This document shows, one piece after another, positions 22,843 to 34,022 of a stretch of DNA of 34,022 nt (its first letter is position 1; the number at the start of each line of letters is the position of its first letter). The stretch is from contig NZ_JARHZE010000036.1 of assembly GCF_029258315.1 (NCBI RefSeq), positions 1 to 34,022 of the forward strand, in the 5' to 3' direction. The position numbers were made by a program, and so were the translations under genes. A model generated the notes under the pieces. The model had not been told where the DNA came from. It ran no database searches and saw only the letters and a program-made list of their open reading frames with translations. Source of the DNA: Fusobacterium sp. Its GTDB lineage: Bacteria; Fusobacteriota; Fusobacteriia; Fusobacteriales; Fusobacteriaceae.

Positions 22843-23211
22843 ATGGAATTATTGGCGTTTTTGGAAAATAATGATATTGAAAATTTTGAGGAAAATTTAA
22901 GTATTATTACTGTTGAGGAAAAGGATTCAAAAGGATTTACAATTTTACATTTAGCAGTTCAAGCTGGAAAATATGATTTTGTTGATGCTTTAATGTATCA
23001 TGGAGCAGATCCAAATGTAGAAAATAAAAATCACGAGACACCTTTACATATTGCAGCAAAAAAAGATTTTCATAAAATTTTTAAATTACTTTGGGAATAT
23101 GGAGCAGATTTAGAGCAAGAGGATTATAAAGGAAGAACGCCTAAAGATATAGCTTTAGAAAATTCGAGTAAAAAAGTTTTAAAAGAGATAGAAGAAATAG
23201 AGGAAGACTAA
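22843..23211 (+). CDS. Small ankyrin-repeat protein
   Basis: 122 residues with about three ankyrin repeats: KGFTILHLAVQAGKYDFVDALMYHGADPN, then NHETPLHIAAKKDFHKIFKLLWEYGADLE, and a last one starting YKGRTPKDIALE. Cytosolic, acidic C-terminus, probably a protein-binding scaffold; the partner is unknown. The gene is 25 bases before the PAS-GGDEF-EAL gene and likely co-transcribed. Oddity: the good RBS GGAG (22821-22824) is 18 bases from the ATG but only six bases from an in-frame TTA at 22831, so the start may differ. Confidence 0.85.
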   Translation: MELLAFLENNDIENFEENLSIITVEEKDSKGFTILHLAVQAGKYDFVDALMYHGADPNVENKNHETPLHIAAKKDFHKIFKLLWEYGADLEQEDYKGRTPKDIALENSSKKVLKEIEEIEED

Positions 23212-23236: not shown

Positions 23237-24976
23237 ATGGAAGATTTAGAAAAAAATAATAGAGAAAAAATTCTTAAATCTTCTAATGAAGTTAAGAAAG
23301 CAAAAAATATACTTAAAATGTCGTATATAACTGGGAATGATAACTTTGATGAAATTTATGATGCTTTAGAACAGATAAGTGAAGACTATATTTTTATAGG
23401 AAATATGAAAACAATGGTTTTCAAATATCCTGCACCATTTATAAAAAGAGTTGGATTTCCTACAGAAATAATGCAAAATCCGTTTACATATTGGAAAAAT
23501 ATTATTGTTGAAAGTGATTGGAAAAAATTCCAGGAATCAACTTTAAATGTATTAAAGGGCGAGAGTAAGTACCAAAATATTGAATTCAGAGTAAAAGATG
23601 TCAAAGGAAATATTACTTGGTTAAGAAAAAAAAGTGTTGTAATTAGAGATGAATTTGGAAGTACAGTAACTATTGTTGGAAATATTTCTTTCTTAGGAAA
23701 GCAAAATAAGATAGATCCAATAACAGGGTTGATGAAAATTACAGAATTTTTTAAGAATTTTAATAAGAAATTGGAAAAAGAATATATAGAAAATATCGGA
23801 ATGATGATTATAGGTGTAGATGATTTTGAACAGATAAATCAATTATATAGTCGTCAAACAGGTGATAGGGTTTTAAAAAATTTAGCAAATGTGATTCAAT
23901 ATAATATTCCTGATGATATTTCACTTTATAAGTTAGATGGGGATAATTTCGGATTAATATTAGAAAATGTTGATAAGGATGAAGTAAGAGATATATATTC
24001 AAAAATAAAAGATTCTTTAGGAAAAATACATTTTTTAAATGAAGAAAATGTAGCTATAAATATTTCGGCAGGATGTGCTATTTTTCCAAAAAATGGGATA
24101 ACTTATCAAGAACTGTATAAATTTGCAGTATATTCATTATTATATTGTAAAAAAACAGGAAAAAATAAATTGGTGTTTTTCTCAGAAGAGGTTATAGAAA
24201 ATAAAGTTAAACATTTTGAAATTTTATATTTCTTAAAACAAAGTATTGATAATAACTTTGAAAATTTCGAGGTATTTTATCAGCCACAAATCTCAACAAA
24301 AACAAAAAAATTAAAAGGTTTTGAGGCGTTGCTTAGATGGAAATGTGAGAAATATGGAAATGTTTCTCCAGTTGAATTTATTCCTCTTTTAGAAGAAACA
24401 GGACTAATAAGTTTAGTTGGAAATTGGGTTTTAGAGCAAAGTTTAAAAACTTTTAAAAGTTGGTTAGAGAAATATCCAGATTTAAAAATAAGTGTAAATC
24501 TTTCTTGTGTCCAACTTATTAATAAAAATTGTATACCTGATTTTAAAAAGATATTGGAGGAAAATGAATTTCCAAGGGAAAATATTTTCTTTGAAATAAC
24601 AGAAAGTACTACTGTAAGCAATATTAAAACTTTAAAAGAAATATATGAAGAGATAAAAGCATTAGGAGTAAATATTGCTTTAGATGATTTTGGAACTGGA
24701 TATTCATCTTTTGGAATTTTAAAAGAGATACCAGTTGACATGGTAAAGATAGATCGTTCTTTTGTAAAAGATATATTAAATAGTTCTTTTGATGTTACTT
24801 TCATAAAATTTATAACAGAGATATGTCATAATTATGGAATAAAAATTTGTATTGAGGGTGTTGAAAGAAAAGAGGAATTGGATCTTCTTGAAGGATTAAA
24901 TGTTGATTATATTCAAGGATATTATTTTGGTAAACCAGAACCAGAAAAAGTAATATCTGAAAAATATTTAAAATAA
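23237..24976 (+). CDS. PAS-GGDEF-EAL protein, predicted cyclic-di-GMP phosphodiesterase
   Basis: 579 residues. A PAS/PAC sensor domain (about 34-155), a GGDEF domain (about 160-310) and an EAL domain (about 325-575). The GGDEF signature is degenerate, D234-G-D-N-F238, so cyclase activity is unlikely. The EAL part looks intact: E363-A-L-L-R-W, NLSCVQL, FEITEST, LDDFGTGYSSF, VKIDRSF, EGVE and QGYYFGKP provide the usual metal and catalytic residues. It should hydrolyse cyclic-di-GMP to pGpG in the cytosol under control of the PAS domain; no membrane helix is seen. RBS AAAGGAG is well placed. The class-I cyclic-di-GMP riboswitch starts within ten bases of its stop. Confidence 0.92.
   Translation: MEDLEKNNREKILKSSNEVKKAKNILKMSYITGNDNFDEIYDALEQISEDYIFIGNMKTMVFKYPAPFIKRVGFPTEIMQNPFTYWKNIIVESDWKKFQESTLNVLKGESKYQNIEFRVKDVKGNITWLRKKSVVIRDEFGSTVTIVGNISFLGKQNKIDPITGLMKITEFFKNFNKKLEKEYIENIGMMIIGVDDFEQINQLYSRQTGDRVLKNLANVIQYNIPDDISLYKLDGDNFGLILENVDKDEVRDIYSKIKDSLGKIHFLNEENVAINISAGCAIFPKNGITYQELYKFAVYSLLYCKKTGKNKLVFFSEEVIENKVKHFEILYFLKQSIDNNFENFEVFYQPQISTKTKKLKGFEALLRWKCEKYGNVSPVEFIPLLEETGLISLVGNWVLEQSLKTFKSWLEKYPDLKISVNLSCVQLINKNCIPDFKKILEENEFPRENIFFEITESTTVSNIKTLKEIYEEIKALGVNIALDDFGTGYSSFGILKEIPVDMVKIDRSFVKDILNSSFDVTFIKFITEICHNYGIKICIEGVERKEELDLLEGLNVDYIQGYYFGKPEPEKVISEKYLK
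24927..24956 (+). promoter_or_regulatory. Candidate promoter for the riboswitch operon inside the EAL gene
   Basis: TTGGTA (24927-24932), 18-base spacer, TAATAT (24951-24956). It would start transcription about 20 bases before the aptamer. It lies in the last codons of the EAL gene. The match is moderate; the operon may also be transcribed by readthrough from the EAL gene. Confidence 0.35.
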
Positions 24977-24980
24977 AATT

Positions 24981-25047
24981 TTGGCAAAATAATGGAAACG
25001 TTATGACGCAAAGCTATAGGGCCTTTAAAAGTGGCAGCCAGTTGCAA
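24981..25047 (+). ncRNA. Cyclic-di-GMP-I riboswitch (GEMM) aptamer
   Basis: All class-I landmarks are present in order: closing strand GGCAA (24983-24987), a hairpin ATAATG-GAAA-CGTTAT (24989-25004) with the GNRA tetraloop, the invariant GACGCAAAGC (25005-25014), CTATAGGGCC that begins the second arm with the tetraloop receptor side, and GTGGCAGCCAGTTGC (25031-25045), whose TTGC closes the first strand. This RNA binds cyclic-di-GMP. It is followed at once by an intrinsic terminator, with which it shares bases 25045-25047, and then by the fibre operon. A ligand-stabilised closing stem should compete with the terminator, so an ON switch is the likelier reading. Confidence 0.95.
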
Positions 25048-25074
25048 TCACAATTTTTTGTGATTGTTTTTTTT
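25045..25074 (+). terminator. Riboswitch expression platform: intrinsic terminator
   Basis: CAATCACAA (25045-25053), loop TTTT, TTGTGATTG (25058-25066), eight Ts (25067-25074). Its 5' arm overlaps the 3' strand of the aptamer closing stem (25042-25047). It also ends messages from the EAL gene when the switch is off. Confidence 0.93.
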
Positions 25075-25090
25075 ATTAAGGAGTTATATA

Positions 25091-25579
25091 ATGAGAAAAT
25101 GGTTATTAATACTTTTAAATTTAATAATTTTTGTTTTAGCAGAAGCTGGATATAAAGATGAGGCAGTTGTAAAGATAACAGCTGATGTGTTACAACCTAT
25201 AACTATAAAAAAGATATCTGATGTTGACTTTGGAACAATAATAGCAGGGGATACAGATATAAAAGCTAAACAAAATGGGAAAATAGAAATAAGTGGAAAT
25301 GGAAATATAAAACTTGAATGGAAAGCTGATGGGGACTCAAGATATAAATCAGTAAAAGAGTTTTTAGAGGTTCCAATTTATAATGAAAATTCTAAAAAAA
25401 TAATAACTGAGATTTTTTTAGGAGAAAATAGAGGATCTATAGTAGAAGATGTAATAAAATTTTCTGGTTTAAAGAGCAAAGAAATAACTATAAAAGGAAG
25501 AATAAATAAACTTCCAATAGAAACTGAAAGTGGAAAATATTCTGGTGGGATTACAATAAGAGCAACATATGAAAATTAA
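25091..25579 (+). CDS. DUF4402-like secreted fibre subunit (small)
   Basis: 162 residues. Signal peptide MRKWLLILLNLIIFVLAEA, then a beta-rich domain in which DVDFGTIIAGDTDIKAKQNG (about residues 47-66), KIEISGNGNIKL and the final YSGGITIRATYEN follow the DUF4402 pattern (phenylalanine-Gly-x-Ile, central Gly, Y.G.x.V.Y end). DUF4402 proteins are found with PapD-like chaperones and ushers as pilin-like subunits. The longer open frame begins in the terminator (25064); AAGGAG at 25078-25083 fits the ATG at 25091. First gene after the riboswitch, which makes it the likely major subunit. No conserved disulfide is seen. Function is inferred from context. Confidence 0.78.
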   Translation: MRKWLLILLNLIIFVLAEAGYKDEAVVKITADVLQPITIKKISDVDFGTIIAGDTDIKAKQNGKIEISGNGNIKLEWKADGDSRYKSVKEFLEVPIYNENSKKIITEIFLGENRGSIVEDVIKFSGLKSKEITIKGRINKLPIETESGKYSGGITIRATYEN

Positions 25580-25594
25580 AAATAGGGGAGAGCT

Positions 25595-27703
25595 ATGAAA
25601 AAAATAATTTTATTAATATTATTGATAATAAACAGTTTTTGTTTTGCTGGGGAAAGTTTAAATATAAAAGTTCCAGAAAATTTAGTGGATATGTATCTTT
25701 ATAGAAATATGGAAGAGGGAAGATACAAGGGAGTTTATACAGATATTTTAAAAAAAGTTGAAAAAAAATCAAATCATAAATTAAATTACATTTTTAATGA
25801 AAAAAATCCAGATATAGCTTTAAGAATAGTGGATAAAACACAATATAAAGATTATAATTTTATTCAAATGCCAATAAATTATAGAATAGCTATACTGGTA
25901 AATAATGATGGAAATATAAGAAAAATTAGTGATCTTCAAGGACTAAAAATAGGATATATAGAAAATTCTCGTGGTATTGATGAGATAGAAAAGAAATTTT
26001 CAGATTTAAAATTTGAAAAAGTTTTGATGAAAAATAGAGTAGATGCTCTTGAAAGTTTAAGAGCTGGAGATCTAGATGGATTGATTTTAAGTAACTGGAT
26101 TGAAAATAACTCAGTGGAGACTAAAGTAAGAGTCATAGAGAATATTTTATACAATGAACAAATAGCTGTAAAAAAAGATTTAAAAGATGTGTATAAAATC
26201 TTAGAAGAGGAACTAAGAAATTACAAAGAGGAAGAATTAAGAGAAATTTTAGATAAAAATAGAATAGAATTTTATAAATATGTTTTTAAAGATATTCCAA
26301 ATTATAAATTTATAAAGGAGAAATACTCTGAAATAAAAATAGGAATAACAAAAGACAAATATTTATTACCGCTTTTTTATAAACACAATGGAAAAATAAA
26401 GGGGATACTTCCAAAAATAATGGAGGATATGGAAAAAATATTAGGTATTCCATTTGTAATAACAAAGGATGAAGATTGGGATATCAATGGTATTATAATA
26501 GAAAATAATGATTTAAAAGATAAATATACTTTTACAAAACCTTATTATCAAAATACAATAGGTATAGCTAATAGAAAGTTAGATTCTTTTGCTGTTGATG
26601 CTTCAGATTTGGATAACGAAAAGATAATTTTAATAAAAGATAAAGATTTTAATATTACACTTCCAAAGATGATTAATAATCCACAGATAATTTATGTAGA
26701 AACATTACAAGAAGGGATTGAAAAACTACTTAATTATGAGGGAAATTTTTTAATCTTTTTTTCAAGTATGATAGAGGGAACAATAACAAATAGTTTTTTA
26801 GAAAATAAAATAAAAGTTGCAGGAATATTAAATGAAGAATTTAGTATTGGTATGGGAATAAGAAAAGAGGATGAAGAGTTAGGAAGTATAATAAGAGTTC
26901 TAGTAGAAAGTTTTTCTCTTGATAAAACAATGGTTGATACAAAAGCTAATAAAAATATTTTATTTGAAAAAAATTATAGATTAATGGCAAAGATAGCAGT
27001 ACCAACAATAATATTTATAATTTTATTGATTATTTTAATAATAAAATCAGAAAAAAATAGGAAAAAGGCTGAGAGAGTAAGTGGAACTTTAATAGAAACA
27101 TTTGAATCTATTCATCAATTAGATACTGAAGAAGCTGGAGACCATTCTAAAAGATTAGCTCTTTATGCTGAATTTATGGCGAAACAGTATGGTTGTAGTA
27201 AAAAATTTATTACAGATATAAAAAGATTAACACCATTTCATGATATAGGAAAGATAGCTATATCTAAATCAATTTTAAATAAACCTGGAAAACTGACAAA
27301 AGAGGAGTTTGAAACAGTAAAAAAACATACTGAAATAGGTTTAAAATTAATAAAAAAATTGGAATTGGGAGTGATGGCTGAAAATATAATAAGACTACAC
27401 CATGAGAAATGGAATGGAAAAGGTTATCCATTAGGTTTAGAAGAAAATAAAATTCCTTTAGAGAGTAGAATTGTAGCATTAGCAGACACTTATGATAATC
27501 TTAGACAAGATAAAGTATATAGAGATGGATTTACTCATGCAGAATCTGTAAAAATAATTATAGAAGAGAGTGGAAAAAGTTTCGATCCAATCTTGGTTAA
27601 AATATTTGAAAAGAATCATAGAATATTTGATGAAATATTTAAGAAAAATAATAAAGCTAAATATTCAATAGAAGAGATATTTTCAAAATTTAAAAATAAA
27701 TAA
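25595..27703 (+). CDS. Periplasmic-sensor HD-GYP phosphodiesterase with tandem solute-binding domains
   Basis: 702 residues. Signal peptide (MKKIILLILLIINSFCFAG), two periplasmic family-3 solute-binding-like domains (about 22-225 and 246-455; the second begins EIKIGITKDKYLLPLFYKHN), one membrane helix (about 466-488) and a cytoplasmic HD-GYP domain (about 505-680). Catalytic features: GDHSKRLA, H549-D550 in FHDIGKIAI, KPGKLTKEEFE, KKHTEIG, RLHHEKWNGKGYP with G610-Y-P612, and ALADTYDNL. It should degrade cyclic-di-GMP in response to a periplasmic ligand. The layout recalls BvgS-type sensors. RBS GGGGAG; 15 bases after the previous gene. Its place inside a fibre operon behind a cyclic-di-GMP riboswitch suggests feedback control. 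Confidence 0.9.
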   Translation: MKKIILLILLIINSFCFAGESLNIKVPENLVDMYLYRNMEEGRYKGVYTDILKKVEKKSNHKLNYIFNEKNPDIALRIVDKTQYKDYNFIQMPINYRIAILVNNDGNIRKISDLQGLKIGYIENSRGIDEIEKKFSDLKFEKVLMKNRVDALESLRAGDLDGLILSNWIENNSVETKVRVIENILYNEQIAVKKDLKDVYKILEEELRNYKEEELREILDKNRIEFYKYVFKDIPNYKFIKEKYSEIKIGITKDKYLLPLFYKHNGKIKGILPKIMEDMEKILGIPFVITKDEDWDINGIIIENNDLKDKYTFTKPYYQNTIGIANRKLDSFAVDASDLDNEKIILIKDKDFNITLPKMINNPQIIYVETLQEGIEKLLNYEGNFLIFFSSMIEGTITNSFLENKIKVAGILNEEFSIGMGIRKEDEELGSIIRVLVESFSLDKTMVDTKANKNILFEKNYRLMAKIAVPTIIFIILLIILIIKSEKNRKKAERVSGTLIETFESIHQLDTEEAGDHSKRLALYAEFMAKQYGCSKKFITDIKRLTPFHDIGKIAISKSILNKPGKLTKEEFETVKKHTEIGLKLIKKLELGVMAENIIRLHHEKWNGKGYPLGLEENKIPLESRIVALADTYDNLRQDKVYRDGFTHAESVKIIIEESGKSFDPILVKIFEKNHRIFDEIFKKNNKAKYSIEEIFSKFKNK

Positions 27704-27715
27704 GAGGTGAATATT

Positions 27716-29146
27716 TTGAAAAAATATATAATTTTATTAATATTCAATTTCTCTTTAATTTTTGCTAAAGAAATAAAGACAGAAAATTTTGATGATTTAT
27801 TTGAAGAAACATATATAGAAGAGGAAGTCAAAGAGGAAAAAATAAAAGATATTAAAATTATACAAGGAATGAAAGTAGCTAATTTAAATCCTGCCTTAAT
27901 AAATGATGTTTATTCGTCAAGGGTAGTAAAGTTTGTTTATGATAATCTTTTTATAAAAAATAAAAATGGTGATATAGAACCATATCTTGTGGATAATTAC
28001 CATTGGATAAATGAAAAAGAGCTTTATTTGGAGTTAAGAGATGATGTTTATTTTCATAATAATGATCGTTTAACTTCTATTGATGTAAAGAACTCTTTGG
28101 CATATTTAAAATACAACGGAAATTTAGGAAGACTTTTTTCAGAGATAATCAATATAAAGATTATAGATGATAGAAAATTAATAATAAAACTGTCAGAAGA
28201 AAATAATATATTTTTAGAGATGTTGACCTATAATATAGCTTCAATATTTAAAATAAAAGATGGAAAAATATATGGAACAGGTGAATATTTTGTAAAATCT
28301 TTTGAAAAAAATAGACTTGTATTAAAGAGATTTGATAAATATTTTAAGGAAAATCATGATGTGGAAAATATTTATTTTTCTTATGAGATTCAGGATAGTC
28401 AAAGGCTTATATCACTTTTTAATGAAAAAGTAGATGTAGCACTAGACATAGATAATATAGCTTTGAATTATGGTGAAAAGTATAATATAATATCTGATGA
28501 AACAATAAAACTTCAAGAAAAAGGTATAAAAACTTTAGCCTTAGTTTTTGGAAATAAAAATAATTATACCTATGAAGAAAAAAAAGCTATTGAAAATATA
28601 ATAGATAGAGAGGCAACTAGTTTCTTTCCTTTTAAATTATCAAAAGAGGAATTTTCAAAAATAGATATAGTAAATAGTAATGAAAAGTTTCCAGAAAATA
28701 TAAAGTTGAAAAGTCAAATGGATCTGATGGTTTTAAATACAGATAAAAATATAAAAGAGGCAAATAAAATAAAAGAAGCTTTTGAAAAATATAATATACA
28801 GATTAATATTTTGCCGCATAACTTAGAGTCATATAATATAAATCTAAAAAATAAAAATTTTGATTTGACACTTTATAATATTTCAATGGTAGGGGAAGAG
28901 GTTGTATTCAATATAGCTAAGATTTTCTTAAATGATTTAGAAAATAGGGAGGTATATAACTCTCTTAAACCATTTTTCAAAATTTTAAAAGAGGAAAAAA
29001 GAAAAGAAAAAAGAGAAATTATACTAGATAAAATTTTACAATTAATTTATAAGGAATTACCATATATTCCAATCTTGCATTATAGAGATTATATAGTAAT
29101 TTCCCCTAAATATAAAAATCAATATGATGAATGGGAGAAAAGATGA
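27716..29146 (+). CDS. Family-5 extracellular solute-binding protein (peptide/nickel type), no transporter nearby
   Basis: 476 residues. Signal peptide KKYIILLIFNFSLIFAKE, an acidic stretch (about 20-45), then the SBP_bac_5 fold: LNPALINDVYSSRVVKFVYDNL, PYLVDNYHWINEKELYLELR, VYFHNNDRLTSIDVKNSL, GTGEYFVKSF, all typical of OppA-like proteins. No lipobox cysteine is visible, so it is probably soluble in the periplasm. No ABC permease or ATPase is nearby. GAGGTGA (27704-27710) fits a TTG start at 27716 better than the GTG at 27707 that it contains. It sits 12 bases after the HD-GYP gene; it may present a ligand to that sensor or serve the fibre. This is inference. Confidence 0.82.
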   Translation: MKKYIILLIFNFSLIFAKEIKTENFDDLFEETYIEEEVKEEKIKDIKIIQGMKVANLNPALINDVYSSRVVKFVYDNLFIKNKNGDIEPYLVDNYHWINEKELYLELRDDVYFHNNDRLTSIDVKNSLAYLKYNGNLGRLFSEIINIKIIDDRKLIIKLSEENNIFLEMLTYNIASIFKIKDGKIYGTGEYFVKSFEKNRLVLKRFDKYFKENHDVENIYFSYEIQDSQRLISLFNEKVDVALDIDNIALNYGEKYNIISDETIKLQEKGIKTLALVFGNKNNYTYEEKKAIENIIDREATSFFPFKLSKEEFSKIDIVNSNEKFPENIKLKSQMDLMVLNTDKNIKEANKIKEAFEKYNIQINILPHNLESYNINLKNKNFDLTLYNISMVGEEVVFNIAKIFLNDLENREVYNSLKPFFKILKEEKRKEKREIILDKILQLIYKELPYIPILHYRDYIVISPKYKNQYDEWEKR

Positions 29147-29976
29147 AAAAAATATTTATTATAATTTTATATATACTTTCTTTTTGTGTTTCTTTTGCTT
29201 TGGATGCCCAGACAGATTATATTTATCTTAAAGATGATGTAATCTATGGGGTTACTACAAGAACAGAATTTAGAATAGATCAAGTTAATATTAAGTTAAG
29301 AAATGGAAAAGGTAGATATTTTGCATTAGAAAATTCTTTAAATCTAAAAAATAATTTTATAAAAGGTGAAAACTTAAAAATAACTTCAAATGAAGAGAAT
29401 GTAATAGGAGATAAGATATTTTTTAGAAATAGAGAGGGAAAAGTAGTTGATGAAATAAAATTTGATTTACAAGGAATTTTTATTTTTGATTGGAGTAATC
29501 TTAAAACAACAAGAGAGGTAAAAAGATTAAAAATAGGAAAGATCTATGATGAAGCAGGGAGAGTAGAAGAACAAATATATTTAGAATTAAATAATATAGA
29601 TGTGATATACTCTTTAAAAATAAAAGTTGAGCAAGATATGTATTTAGGAAAAGTAATAGCTGGAGAAAAGCTAAGTACAGAAAGATCAATAGATGCCCAT
29701 CCTGCTAAAATTTCATTGGTTGGAGAAAAAGGAAAAAGAGTAGAGATAAAAATACCTAAATCAGCTATTATAAAAAATGAACTTAATGATGAATTGGTAG
29801 TTAATTTAAAGTTTAGGGAAAATAAAAAACAGTCTTTAAAGAAAAAATTTGAAAAAGTAGAGGGAAATAAAAGTATTATAAATGATATTTTTATAGATGG
29901 TGAGACAGATACAAATAGAAGTAATTTTGGAAGATATACAGGGTCATTTGTGGTAAGAGTGGAGTATGAAGATTAG
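29143..29976 (+). CDS. DUF4402-like secreted fibre subunit (large), possible tip adhesin
   Basis: 277 residues. Signal peptide MKKIFIIILYILSFCVSFA, then an N-terminal beta-rich region (about 25-145) not recognised, and a C-terminal domain (about 150-277) that matches the small subunit: YSLKIKVEQDMYLGKVIAGEKLS, KISLVGEKGKRVEIKI and a final YTGSFVVRVEYED. A two-domain subunit beside a one-domain subunit is the usual relation of tip adhesin to major pilin. The open frame reaches 29131, but GGGAGA (29133-29138) fits the ATG at 29143, which overlaps the previous stop (ATGA). The function is inferred from the operon. Confidence 0.72.
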   Translation: MKKIFIIILYILSFCVSFALDAQTDYIYLKDDVIYGVTTRTEFRIDQVNIKLRNGKGRYFALENSLNLKNNFIKGENLKITSNEENVIGDKIFFRNREGKVVDEIKFDLQGIFIFDWSNLKTTREVKRLKIGKIYDEAGRVEEQIYLELNNIDVIYSLKIKVEQDMYLGKVIAGEKLSTERSIDAHPAKISLVGEKGKRVEIKIPKSAIIKNELNDELVVNLKFRENKKQSLKKKFEKVEGNKSIINDIFIDGETDTNRSNFGRYTGSFVVRVEYED

Positions 29977-32572
29977 ATTATATAGTTTAATTTTATTAAT
30001 GTTTTGTTTTTTTAAAACTTATTCAATAGAAAATTATAAAGAGTTTGAAGATTCGTATGTTCAAATCAATGCCAAAAATTTAAAAGATGATTTTTTTATG
30101 GTAAAATTTGATAGTGAAACAGAAAACGTGTATATAGGTTTAAATACTTTTTTCTATTTTTTGGAATTATATACTTTGGATATTAATTTAAAAGAGAAAA
30201 AAGTTTATGGAAATATCAATAAAAAAAATATAAAGGTCTATTTTGATGATGAAGAATCTTTTGTAATGGATGGAGAATTATATGTAAATATAAAGGTTTT
30301 AGAGAAAAAATTACTTTTTAAAGAGAGTTTTTTTGATTATTCAGCGCTAAAATTAAATGTAGAACCAAATTTTATTTTACCTTATGAAGAAAGAGAAAGA
30401 GCCAAAGTTGAAAGATTAAGATTGGATACAAGAAAGGTGGAAGATGAGAAGAAGATAGATTTTGAAATTCCAAGAAAATTGGCGACACCAGGATTATTTA
30501 AGATAGATTACTCAAAATCTAATGTTGAAGAATCAGAGTATCAAATTAAGTATGAATATTCATCTCAACTTTTATACGGAGAATTATATTTATCAGGAGA
30601 AATTAAACCAGAGCATAAGATAGATTATGGAAATTTAACTTATTCAGATATAATTGAAGATAACGATTTAGTAGTTGGAAACTTTTCATTGATAGCTCCA
30701 TCTTTTTTTGGTGTTGATACAAAAGTTCTAGGAGTTAGTTTTGAGAATAAAGATACCTATATGACAAGAGATTCAGGTATAACAATTATAAAAGGACAGG
30801 CTAAAAATGCAGAAACAATAGAGTTGTATAGAAATTCATTTTTAGTTGACTATATAAAACCATATTCAGAAAATTTTGAATTTAGAATTGATGATGGAGT
30901 TTTCAATTCAGATTATACACTAAAAATTTATTATGAAAATGGAGAGATAGAGGAAAGAAAAGTTTATTCTCTTTCTGATAGTGATCTATTAAAAAAAGGA
31001 AAATCTAGATTTACATTCCAAGGTGGAAAAGGTGACGAAACTCATGAAAATCAATATATAGGTAGAGCTTTTTATGGAGTTACAGATAATTTAACTTTGG
31101 GATTAGGCGGAATGAATTTAAATTCTATTTCAGGTAACCAATATAAAATATTAGAAAGTGACGTTTTATTGAGAACCGGAAATAAGAATTTTCCAATGAT
31201 TATCAATTATAAAAATTATTACGATTATAAATCTAAAGAAAATAGTTATGAATTAAGTGTTGATCAGAAATTATTTTCATATAATTTAAAATTTATAGAG
31301 AATAGTTTTTCAGAGACAATAGCAGAGCAATCTGAAATAAAAAAATATAATTCTATCTCTTTAGGAAAAAGTTTTAATAGAAACTTTTTTGAAATAGGGG
31401 TGGAAAGAATACTAAAAACAGAGGAAAAATTTGGTGAAGATAAAGAGGAAAATATTTATGGATTATGGGATAGCTCTGTATTTAATCCAGTATATACTTC
31501 ATTAAAAATAGAAAAAAATATAAATGGAAGTAGAGAGGATGTTGGATTTAAACCTTCATTAAGTTATTCAAATGGAAGTGTATCTATTTTATTAGAGGCA
31601 GACATATCAAAAGATGATGGCAAGAGAAGATATGATCAAGAATATTTTTTAAGAATAAATCATAAGAAAGAAAATATATTTAAAGAAATATTATTTGCAG
31701 ATGTTGGAGCAGAAATAAAATATTCAAATGAAACCAAAAAATTCACATATGGATTGTCATTTAATATAGAATTAGATGATATAATTTACATGAAATTACC
31801 TTCAACAACTACATTTGATGAAGATAAGAATAGAAAAACTCAAACAGGACTAGAAGTAAGCAAGATAATAGATTTGAGTAATCCGAAGAGAAAAATAAAG
31901 AAAAATATATCTTTAAATAGTTCTTGGATACATGGAAAAGTATTTTTAGATAAGAATGGAAATGGAGTTTATGATGAAGGAGAAACTCCTCTTGAAAATG
32001 TAAAAGTGATGGTAGATAATAAACATTTTTATTCAGATAAAAATGGGGAATATGTAGCTGAAGGATTCTATTCAAATGAGGTTGTAGTTTTAGATATAGA
32101 TAGAAAAACACTAGATCCAATGCTGAAGAATTCAAGAGATAGTTTAAAAATTAAAACAAGAAGATCTTCAGGAGCTAAAATAGATATTCCAGTTGAAGTG
32201 GTTTCATTAGTAATGGGAAATATATGGCAAACAGAGGATTTTAGTGAAAAAGAATTTATAAGAAGTATATCAATGACAACTATTTTACTAGAAAAAGATG
32301 GAAAAGTTGTAAAAACAATAGATCCTGAATTTGATGGAATGTTTTTCTTTGAAGATGTTACACCAGGAGAATATATAATAAAATTTGAATATATTGGAGA
32401 GGAAAATATAGGATTTAGTCAAAATATGATTCCAGTAAATGTAACTCTTGAAAATCCAGAGGAGGGAGGATATTTTGAAGGAATTGATACTAAATTAATA
32501 AGAAATCAAGAAAATATTTCAGAAAAAAAAGACAAAGGTTCAGAAATAACAGATGATATATTTAATTTCTAA
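29966..32572 (+). CDS. Usher-like outer-membrane protein with C-terminal Cna-B/SdrD-like domain
   Basis: 868 residues. Signal peptide (KIRLYSLILLMFCFFKTYS), an N-terminal periplasmic region (about 25-165), then a long beta-barrel region (about 170-640). Inside it ELYRNSFLVDYIKPYSENFEFRI and SDYTLKIYYENGEIEERKV (about 282-330) follow the usher pattern around the plug, and SRFTFQGGKGD...YIGRAFYGVTDNLTLGLGG matches the next barrel strands. From about 655 comes GKVFLDKNGNGVYDEGETPLENV, a Ca-binding-like loop of SdrD/carboxypeptidase-regulatory-like domains, as in alternative ushers. It should export and assemble the two DUF4402 subunits. It overlaps the previous gene by 11 bases. Sequence is divergent, so the call leans on context. 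Confidence 0.8.
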   Translation: MKIRLYSLILLMFCFFKTYSIENYKEFEDSYVQINAKNLKDDFFMVKFDSETENVYIGLNTFFYFLELYTLDINLKEKKVYGNINKKNIKVYFDDEESFVMDGELYVNIKVLEKKLLFKESFFDYSALKLNVEPNFILPYEERERAKVERLRLDTRKVEDEKKIDFEIPRKLATPGLFKIDYSKSNVEESEYQIKYEYSSQLLYGELYLSGEIKPEHKIDYGNLTYSDIIEDNDLVVGNFSLIAPSFFGVDTKVLGVSFENKDTYMTRDSGITIIKGQAKNAETIELYRNSFLVDYIKPYSENFEFRIDDGVFNSDYTLKIYYENGEIEERKVYSLSDSDLLKKGKSRFTFQGGKGDETHENQYIGRAFYGVTDNLTLGLGGMNLNSISGNQYKILESDVLLRTGNKNFPMIINYKNYYDYKSKENSYELSVDQKLFSYNLKFIENSFSETIAEQSEIKKYNSISLGKSFNRNFFEIGVERILKTEEKFGEDKEENIYGLWDSSVFNPVYTSLKIEKNINGSREDVGFKPSLSYSNGSVSILLEADISKDDGKRRYDQEYFLRINHKKENIFKEILFADVGAEIKYSNETKKFTYGLSFNIELDDIIYMKLPSTTTFDEDKNRKTQTGLEVSKIIDLSNPKRKIKKNISLNSSWIHGKVFLDKNGNGVYDEGETPLENVKVMVDNKHFYSDKNGEYVAEGFYSNEVVVLDIDRKTLDPMLKNSRDSLKIKTRRSSGAKIDIPVEVVSLVMGNIWQTEDFSEKEFIRSISMTTILLEKDGKVVKTIDPEFDGMFFFEDVTPGEYIIKFEYIGEENIGFSQNMIPVNVTLENPEEGGYFEGIDTKLIRNQENISEKKDKGSEITDDIFNF

Positions 32573-32584
32573 GGGGTTAATAAG

Positions 32585-33484
32585 ATGAAAAGAAGCAACT
32601 TAATAATTTTATACATAGTATTAACTTCCTTTATTTTAGCTTGGGGAAGTATTAGGATTGAAAAATTTGAAAAAAAGAAAATAAAAAATAATATTGTTTA
32701 CATTGAATTGGAAGATACCCCTTTTTCTGGGAAATTAGAAGGGGAAAATATTTCTGAAGAATATAAAAATGGTATTAAAAACGGAGTCTTTAAGGGGGAG
32801 TTTATAGATGAAGGACAGAAATTTTTATATGAAGGAAAATATATAGAGGGGATCAAGCACGGAGTTTGGACAATAAAATATCCTACAGGTGAAAGAAGAG
32901 CTGTACTAGAGTATGATTATGATAAACCTTGTGGTCAATGGAAATATTATTATAAAGGAAATAAATTAGAAGCTTTTGAAAACTTTGAAAAAGGTGTTTT
33001 ATCAGGGGAAATGAAAGTTTTTAATAAAGAGGGAATAGAAATTTTAAAGTCTACATATCATAATGGACTTTTAAATGGAAGATTTATAAGTTATTATTCT
33101 AAAAATATAATAAATACAGTAACTAATTTTTCTTATGGAAAATTAAATGGTTCAATAAAAGTTTTTACAGAAGATGGAACTTTATTACTAGAAGGAAAAT
33201 ATATTGATGATAGAAGAGAAGATGTTTGGAAACTTTATTATAGTTCAGGTGAGATAAAGACAAAAGTTTCATATAAGTTAGGAAAAAAACATGGAGAATC
33301 TATAATTTATGATAAAAATGGTATGGTAATGGAAAAAACTATTTTTAATAATGGAATTGAAGAGGGCAGTAAAGATTTAAAACCAAAAAATAATATTAAT
33401 AAAGATAAATTAGTAAGCAAGTTCAAAAAATTTAACAGAGAGTTAAGATATGAAAAATATGATGATATTTTATCAAAACTATAA
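32585..33484 (+). CDS. MORN-repeat (YwqK-like) exported or anchored protein
   Basis: 299 residues. An N-terminal hydrophobic segment (KRSNLIILYIVLTSFILAWG) acts as signal peptide or anchor. The rest is a string of MORN-2 type repeats, such as FLYEGKYIEGIKHGVWTIKY, GQWKYYYKGNKLEA, YHNGLLNGRFISYY, LEGKYIDDRREDVWKLYYSS and YKLGKKHGESIIYD, then a basic tail. Such repeats occur in YwqK-type proteins and make elongated beta structures. RBS GGGG, 12 bases after the usher gene and 20 bases before the chaperone gene, so it belongs to the fibre operon. The role there is unknown. Confidence 0.82.
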   Translation: MKRSNLIILYIVLTSFILAWGSIRIEKFEKKKIKNNIVYIELEDTPFSGKLEGENISEEYKNGIKNGVFKGEFIDEGQKFLYEGKYIEGIKHGVWTIKYPTGERRAVLEYDYDKPCGQWKYYYKGNKLEAFENFEKGVLSGEMKVFNKEGIEILKSTYHNGLLNGRFISYYSKNIINTVTNFSYGKLNGSIKVFTEDGTLLLEGKYIDDRREDVWKLYYSSGEIKTKVSYKLGKKHGESIIYDKNGMVMEKTIFNNGIEEGSKDLKPKNNINKDKLVSKFKKFNRELRYEKYDDILSKL

Positions 33485-33504
33485 TTTTAAAAGGAGTAAA
33501 ACTT

Positions 33505-34022
33505 ATGAAAAAACTATTTTTTATTTATATATGTCTATATAATATTATTCTTGCATTAAATTTTTCGGTTGCTCCTACTGGATTTAATTTAGATTTAAAA
33601 CAAAATCTAACAAATGAAGTTTACCTTATAAACAATACAGCAAAGCCTTTAAGAATAGAGGTTTTTACAGAAGTGCCAGAGAGTTATGAAGATTATAATT
33701 TTAATGAGAATATTGTGATTTTCCCAAAAATGATTTCTATAAAACCTGGTGGAAAACAAACGGTGAGATTTAAAATTAAAAAAAATAGCAATATGAAGGA
33801 TGGAGAGTATAAAAGTTTATTAGTTTTTAGAGAAAAACCAAGTGAGATTAAATCAGAAGATATAAAAAATACGACAGGACTTACAACTAATATATCTTTT
33901 ATAACAGAACTAGCCATTGCAGTTAAAGGGAATATAGGAAAAGAAAAGATAGATGGAAGTATAAAAGATGTAAAAGTAAATTATAGAAATGATTTTTTAG
34001 ATACCAATACAAAAGTTTTATC
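33505..34022 (+). CDS. PapD-like periplasmic pilus chaperone, 5' part
   Basis: The frame starts at ATG 33505 after AAAAGGAG and runs off the window (172 codons visible). Signal peptide MKKLFFIYICLYNIILA, then FSVAPTGFNLDL, EVYLINNTAKPLRIEV, IVIFPKMISIKPGGKQTVRF and GEYKSLLVFREKP. This is the pattern of the chaperone N-terminal domain: the 'VxP' start, the asparagine-rich turn, and the 'P..l.l.PG..q.vR' block with the conserved Arg. It would carry the DUF4402 subunits to the usher. The C-terminal domain lies past the edge. Confidence 0.85.
   Translation, partial: MKKLFFIYICLYNIILALNFSVAPTGFNLDLKQNLTNEVYLINNTAKPLRIEVFTEVPESYEDYNFNENIVIFPKMISIKPGGKQTVRFKIKKNSNMKDGEYKSLLVFREKPSEIKSEDIKNTTGLTTNISFITELAIAVKGNIGKEKIDGSIKDVKVNYRNDFLDTNTKVL

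Follow-up and report, generated by a model that had tools for sequence, protein, structure and literature searches.

The 34,022-nucleotide stretch of Fusobacterium sp. DNA studied here (the window; contig NZ_JARHZE010000036.1 of assembly GCF_029258315.1) contains a class I cyclic di-GMP (c-di-GMP) aptamer with an overlapping terminator, directly ahead of seven co-directional genes related to chaperone-usher pilus and c-di-GMP signaling proteins. In our reading, to which we give a probability of about 0.72, this is an ON riboswitch acting on transcription of a chaperone-usher pilus, and negative feedback is built into the operon. From the aptamer, the overlapping terminator, the gene homologies, and the conservation described below, we infer the ON direction, the fibre, the feedback, and the gating by a ligand. 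The window is the entire contig (G000:C100, from a genome 86% complete), so the chaperone gene is truncated at the contig end. The features in question are:

24973–25049, + strand: c-di-GMP-I (GEMM-I) aptamer, RF01051
25044–25074, + strand: intrinsic terminator (stem 25044–25067, then a T-run)
25091–25579, + strand: pilin-like subunit 1 (DUF4402-like, below cut-off; C-terminal G-x11-Y motif)
25595–27703, + strand: membrane sensor with an SBP_bac_3-like periplasmic region, a transmembrane segment (by eye), and an HD-GYP domain
27707–29146, + strand: SBP_bac_5 periplasmic solute-binding protein, GTG start
29143–29976, + strand: subunit 2, larger, with a C-terminal DUF4402-like pilin domain (below cut-off) and G-x11-Y motif
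29966–32572, + strand: putative divergent usher of 868 residues, with plug-region homology and a C-terminal SdrD_B-like domain
32585–33484, + strand: MORN_2-repeat protein with a signal-like N-terminus, a recurrent accessory of these operons
33505–34022, + strand: PapD-like periplasmic chaperone (PapD_N), cut by the contig end

The Rfam covariance model RF01051 matched 24973–25049 on the + strand with 58.6 bits (cut-off 35, E = 3.7e-9), the check set beforehand for the class I aptamer that an initial annotation had proposed from the letters of this DNA. A focused scan again ranked RF01051 first in its clan, and two lower-scoring clan matches were set aside. The residue that sets selectivity between cyclic dinucleotides is G11 of Cd1 and G20 of Vc2 (PMC9262584; this source, PMC4744006, PMC6366702, and PMC11218506 are cited from excerpts). 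Using the numbering in that source together with our own alignment, we mapped the selectivity position to model position 11, position 24983 of the window. The base there is G, and c-di-GMP is therefore the expected ligand. Across all 143 RF01051 sites over the cut-off, position 11 was G in 125, A in 14, and C in four. The non-G sites included those before operons in L033 (genome G024) and L048 (genome G009), and some may be cyclic GMP-AMP (cGAMP)-sensing or altered; sites with A, such as the one ahead of the G024 operon, could prefer cGAMP.

The terminator overlaps the aptamer, as the initial annotation had also claimed, and its stem shares the 3′ strand of the aptamer. Its 5′ arm comprises aptamer model positions 82–87, and the conserved C at 25045 (model 83) pairs with the G at 25066. 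The terminator search found this one hairpin, where shuffles averaged 0.1, and folding of the growing transcript gave the aptamer at 77 and 90 nucleotides (nt) and the terminator at 101 nt. Our alignment to published variants points to the model-83 cytosine as the one that pairs with the ligand. Since the terminator uses this conserved 3′ cytosine, aptamer and terminator should be mutually exclusive, which predicts an ON switch. In the pilM GEMM-I riboswitch the terminator takes the ligand-pairing C75 and excludes the aptamer, making an ON switch, whereas in Cd1 the aptamer and terminator coexist, a later antiterminator competes, and the switch is OFF (PMC9262584). Judged by its pairing pattern, the window layout is of the pilM type and not the Cd1 type.

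This arrangement recurred at related loci. We counted a hairpin as shared-strand if it started at or before model position 83 with −8 kcal/mol or better, and found one at 26 of the 29 usher loci that had an upstream riboswitch. By genus, shared-strand hairpins followed 4/6 RF01051 sites in g1, 3/5 in g2, 53/58 in g3, 18/21 in g5, and 1/1 in g11 (79/91 in total), compared with 100 of 1820 controls in which the downstream 80 nt had been dinucleotide-shuffled (5.5%). The model-83 C was paired in 78 of the 79 hairpins and positions beyond it showed several pair types; these pair-type counts come from hairpins selected for pairing, for which the shuffles are the control.

Downstream of the terminator, the seven genes were separated by −11 to +20 bp, consistent with the seven-gene operon of the initial annotation, and Shine-Dalgarno-like stretches preceded most of their starts (by eye). 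Signal peptides had been claimed for nearly all products; a hydrophobic, signal-like N-terminus was present in 7/7, read by eye and not with a signal-peptide program.

Classical pilins have a glycine and a near-terminal tyrosine 12 residues apart at the C-terminus, a rule that we checked on Escherichia coli K-12. The same script found this G-x11-Y motif in all eight classical K-12 subunits tested (YadL and YadC outside) and in neither of two Ecp subunits. Both window subunits had the motif, as did 47/101 pilin-labelled open reading frames (ORFs), while it was found in 0/177 unlabelled, 0/37 chaperone, and 0/31 HD-GYP ORFs. The description of both subunits as DUF4402-like holds because relatives match the family and the pilin C-terminal motif is present; their own DUF4402 (PF14352) scores, 16.4 and 24.0 bits, fell below the Pfam cut-off of 25.2. 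Among 18 aligned members of the pilin family, 13 contained DUF4402 and three Spore Coat U (E 0.1). Subunit 2 is a possible tip or anchor subunit. Matches of the pilin profile to PDB entries were dismissed as chance.

The 868-residue protein had been called usher-like, which stood by way of its relatives and not by direct comparison: it had no match to Pfam Usher up to E 1. It showed full-length homology to the relative L070 (25% identity over ~800 residues, E 6e-39), which in turn scored 43.1 bits against Pfam Usher PF00577 (cut-off 27.1). A scan of five relatives, including L070, with PF00577 gave one over the cut-off, one below it, and three without a match, and 4 of 28 aligned usher family members matched at E 0.01. 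A profile of these 28 aligned to residues 259–410 of E. coli FimD/HtrE (hhalign probability 82%, E 1.1e-5) and, in a search of PDB, to PapC (E 8.5e-4), with SdrD matching the C-terminal domain (E 1.5e-3). On this evidence from its relatives, the product of 29966–32572 is, by sequence, a divergent usher.

The PapD-like chaperone of the initial annotation was recovered with PapD_N at 26.1 bits (cut-off 23) despite the truncation. PapD_N was found in 18 of 25 aligned chaperone members (E 0.01), and their profile aligned to three K-12 chaperones with a probability of 73% (E 3e-5). A PDB profile search with the chaperone profile returned nothing up to E 1. An AlphaFold2 model of the L002 chaperone was confident only in its C-terminal half, at residues ~154–254, a beta-sandwich that aligned to immunoglobulin (Ig)-like domains of GH2 glycosidases; PapD chaperones were not among the matches listed. 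We read the GH2 Ig-like matches as a common beta-sandwich and not as a clue to function. Relatives of the chaperone, or of a pilin from a related locus, were not found in viral contigs.

The second gene of the operon encodes complete HD-GYP catalytic motifs (HDIGK and HHEKWNGKGYP) in an HD_5 domain. The initial annotation had listed extra sensor genes; one such sensor is an HD-GYP enzyme, and the phosphodiesterase and the MORN gene had been missed. Both catalytic motifs (HDxGK and HHE...GxGY) were found in 20 of 22 ORFs labelled as sensor homologues (L002 and L050 among them are apparently the same record). The exceptions were L045, without HDxGK, and L069, without either. Because the HD-GYP enzyme sits under a switch whose ligand it would degrade, we predict self-limiting control of the operon by its own phosphodiesterase. 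The operon neighbours of the SBP_bac_5 gene included no transporter genes. Elsewhere, SBP_bac_3-GGDEF proteins (L083:711-2651, L138:2500-4452), possible makers of the messenger, lay behind c-di-GMP-I riboswitches and resembled the HD-GYP protein in their sensor layout.

We propose the following mechanism. At low c-di-GMP, the 3′ strand of the aptamer would pair into the terminator and transcription would stop ahead of the first pilin gene. When c-di-GMP is high, the bound ligand would keep that strand, including its pairing cytosine, in the aptamer, and no terminator would form. Read-through would then produce pilin, sensor-phosphodiesterase, solute-binding protein, second subunit, usher, MORN protein, and chaperone, and the chaperone and usher would assemble a surface fibre. 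The co-expressed HD-GYP protein would degrade c-di-GMP and so end or tune expression, probably gated by a periplasmic ligand through its own solute-binding-protein (SBP)-like region or the SBP_bac_5 protein. That c-di-GMP switches on a surface fibre was the central proposal of the initial annotation, and it gains computational support from the covariance match, the shared-strand terminator, the chaperone, the pilin motif, and the usher homology.

Of 98 Fusobacteriota genomes, 39 had relatives of the usher; they span 7 of 29 genera (g1, g2, g3, g5, g11, g13, and g14), all in a single family (f1). We take f1 to be Fusobacteriaceae because one g3 genome, the source of relative L002, is a Cetobacterium metagenome-assembled genome. 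RF01051 sites numbered 144 (143 over the cut-off) and occurred in 37/98 Fusobacteriota genomes (36 over the cut-off) and 0/14 control genomes; c-di-GMP-II gave only sub-threshold matches, in 3/98 Fusobacteriota genomes. A same-strand RF01051 match lay within 12 kb upstream of 29 of the 103 usher match rows, which include fragments and remote paralogues, and of 16 of the 28 best rows. In g1, g3, and g5 the genes recurred in the order HD-GYP sensor, SBP5, subunit 2, usher, MORN, chaperone, and some of these genes were absent at other usher loci. The gene set, which had been called unusual, is so by comparison with E. coli-type operons but not within these genera. In the g5 genomes G026–G029, nine extra pilin-chaperone pairs followed the operon, eight of them with their own riboswitch (hand count). 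A second, remoter usher type (L057, L058, L072) had its own chaperones and pilins and lay behind a riboswitch in several g3 genomes. At L069 (5469–13980, genome G019) the operon was apparently decayed, with usher and chaperone each in two ORFs, a sensor without an HD domain, and no riboswitch found.

We read all 144 RF01051 sites for their first gene, defined as one within 450 nt. This gene was pilin-like at 49 sites, a chaperone at 13, HD-GYP at 18, GGDEF/EAL-related at seven, another gene at 49, and absent at eight. For the 90 sites in g1, g2, g3, and g5, the corresponding counts were pilin-like 47, chaperone 11, SBP-HD-GYP nine, GGDEF/EAL-related two, other 20, and none one. Thus 67/90 led into a pilin, chaperone, or SBP-HD-GYP gene, for which 64–67 should be allowed. 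These labels come from an iterated profile that drifted: two of the 47 pilin labels are probably outer-membrane barrels, which we think are L125 and L128, and L123 rests on E 6e-3. Scanned independently against Pfam, the 58 first genes labelled pilin or chaperone gave DUF4402 in 30, PapD_N in seven, SCPU in five (E 0.01), and OMP_b-brl in two. In g3, the riboswitch stood directly before the HD-GYP gene, without a first pilin, at nine sites. Among the other first genes, of which 10 proteins were scanned, were L-type-lectin adhesins, SBP-GGDEF proteins, and a MarR-like protein. An ORF of 96–112 residues came first behind nine g3 riboswitches (L084:690-977 and eight more); the one scanned was MarR-like. 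Pairs of c-di-GMP-I riboswitches ~166–168 nt apart occurred at G054:C3:967476/967644, G059:C1:553405/553571, and G061:C428:1259/1425 (L152, L164, and L171). Those in L152 and L164 preceded an ORF of ~1452 residues, which in L152 encodes an L-type-lectin and DUF11/DUF7507 protein. With two copies in tandem, the response may be sharpened or combined.

Several observations weigh against the proposed mechanism or narrow its reach. Shared-strand hairpins were missing at three of the 29 usher loci, namely G024 and two g14 loci (G054:C3 and G057:C84), and in G024, the closest relative, the terminator begins at model 84, one base past the key cytosine. Four other genera, two of which (g13 and g14) likewise have ushers, had the hairpin at only 20/53 sites (g8 3/10, g9 1/2, g13 3/8, g14 13/33). 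Many sites in this group had a long P1 instead by our reading, and another mechanism or direction is possible there. The grouping of g1, g2, g3, g5, and g11 was chosen after the data were seen, and the window's own terminator pattern arose in 20/500 shuffles of its downstream 80 nt. The P1 of the window aptamer is short, with three clear pairs (by eye), which bears on the energetic contest between aptamer and terminator. No promoter-like site was found on the + strand at 24700–25120. An AlphaFold2 model of the usher, built from two sequences only (window and L002), had a mean predicted local distance difference test score of 32, and we set it aside. G034 (two copies) and G032 have usher operons with HD-GYP but without an RF01051 match, with a lax rescan covering one G034 copy and G032; the switch is therefore not obligatory and the link between riboswitch and HD-GYP is a tendency. 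A hand-made tally of usher operons gave 15 with both, one with the riboswitch only, three with HD-GYP only, and eight with neither (Fisher p = 6e-4), but it kept near-duplicate genomes, left out loci cut by contig ends, and assumed that G022:C272 is like G021:C19, so we do not lean on it.

Three other explanations would account for parts of these data. In one, the locus is primarily a nutrient- or peptide-sensing module (SBP-HD-GYP and SBP_bac_5) in which the riboswitch holds the c-di-GMP level, and the fibre genes are constitutive from other promoters. The nine g3 sites with the riboswitch directly before HD-GYP, together with the SBP-GGDEF proteins behind such riboswitches, fit this idea, but 58 of the 90 sites in g1, g2, g3, and g5 run straight into a pilin or chaperone gene and the gaps between the window genes are tiny, and we consider it unlikely. 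Reversed direction is a further alternative, in which ligand binding to the aptamer would promote termination, so that c-di-GMP would repress the pilus. Cd1, which acts on flagella in Clostridioides difficile, is a validated class I riboswitch and is an OFF switch (PMC4744006, PMC9262584). In Cd1, however, terminator and aptamer coexist and the competitor is a separate antiterminator, while in the window and at the 26 usher loci above the 5′ arm of the terminator is the aptamer 3′ strand itself, which makes an OFF switch quite unlikely here.

It is highly improbable that the element is decayed or non-responsive. Bc1 of Bacillus thuringiensis offers a precedent, as it binds c-di-GMP while expression is unchanged (PMC11218506), and the family does contain a broken operon (L069, described above). 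Against this, the window ORFs are uninterrupted to the contig end, the aptamer is well over the cut-off, and the terminator pairing is kept across genera. The ON riboswitch with phosphodiesterase feedback is thus our preferred reading. The finding reaches beyond the initial annotation: several genera of the family probably have a regulon of ON riboswitches for chaperone-usher pili that includes its own phosphodiesterase. A more tentative extension, which we offer as a possibility with the odds against it, is a dispersed pilus regulon in Fusobacteriaceae. Separate pilin, chaperone, usher, lectin-adhesin, and c-di-GMP-enzyme operons would each have their own GEMM-I ON riboswitch, and the ligand-gated HD-GYP of the main usher operon would make each round of piliation a self-limiting pulse. 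The minority of sites with A might then answer cGAMP, giving two-messenger control of interchangeable subunits.

Other features of the window lie upstream of the operon. A 5S rRNA gene (1–103) is cut by the contig start, and a short ankyrin-like protein (22843–23211, by eye) is encoded ahead of a PAS-GGDEF-EAL gene (23237–24976, + strand), the upstream neighbour of the operon. The GGDEF motif of the latter is degenerate (DGDNF) and its EAL motifs are intact (by eye). The 5′ end of the aptamer overlaps the stop codon of this gene. In the close relative L033, too, a PAS-GGDEF-EAL gene stands ahead of the operon.

Most known chaperone-usher pili come from Proteobacteria, where protein regulators and invertible promoters control them; the type 1 pilus operon of E. 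coli is controlled by an invertible promoter. The fimAICDFGH operon of K-12 resembles the window in its chaperone, usher, and pilins with the same C-terminal G-x11-Y, but has no sensor or MORN gene among its annotated neighbours, and its usher is alike at the profile level only. NspS-MbaA of Vibrio cholerae pairs a periplasmic solute-binding protein with a c-di-GMP enzyme. The window likewise has a solute-binding protein beside a membrane c-di-GMP enzyme, but here an SBP-like region is fused to HD-GYP within a pilus operon, and that it interacts with the SBP_bac_5 protein is conjecture. Among the closest known switches is that of pilM in Geobacter metallireducens, a transcriptional ON GEMM-I riboswitch whose terminator arm takes the ligand-pairing cytosine ahead of pilus-related genes (PMC9262584). 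It differs in sensing cGAMP and serving other pilus genes, whereas the G in the window predicts c-di-GMP, the predicted pilus is of the chaperone-usher type, and a phosphodiesterase is in the operon. The pilA1 riboswitch of C. difficile (Cdi-2-4) is also transcriptional and turns pilus genes on with c-di-GMP, but is a class II RNA and serves type IV pili (PMC6366702).

A full-text search of open-licence articles in PubMed Central (PMC) returned, among the matches listed, no title or abstract that places a chaperone-usher operon under the control of a c-di-GMP riboswitch or deals with a chaperone-usher pilus in Fusobacteriota; subscription papers and preprints were outside its scope, so the absence is weak. 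The main text of a review on chaperone-usher regulation (PMC9820224) is without the words riboswitch, c-di-GMP, and Fusobacter-, and PMC6366702 names type IV pili under riboswitch control and lacks the words usher and Fusobacter-. A survey of secretion systems (PMC4793230) omitted chaperone-usher systems, and its silence is uninformative. Riboswitches and chaperone-usher pili are each known, and their combination here is a new assembly of known parts, not a new kind of system. If our reading is true, the family (Cetobacterium and related genera) has a surface-adhesion programme whose input, c-di-GMP, and whose brake, the HD-GYP enzyme, would be readable from the DNA.

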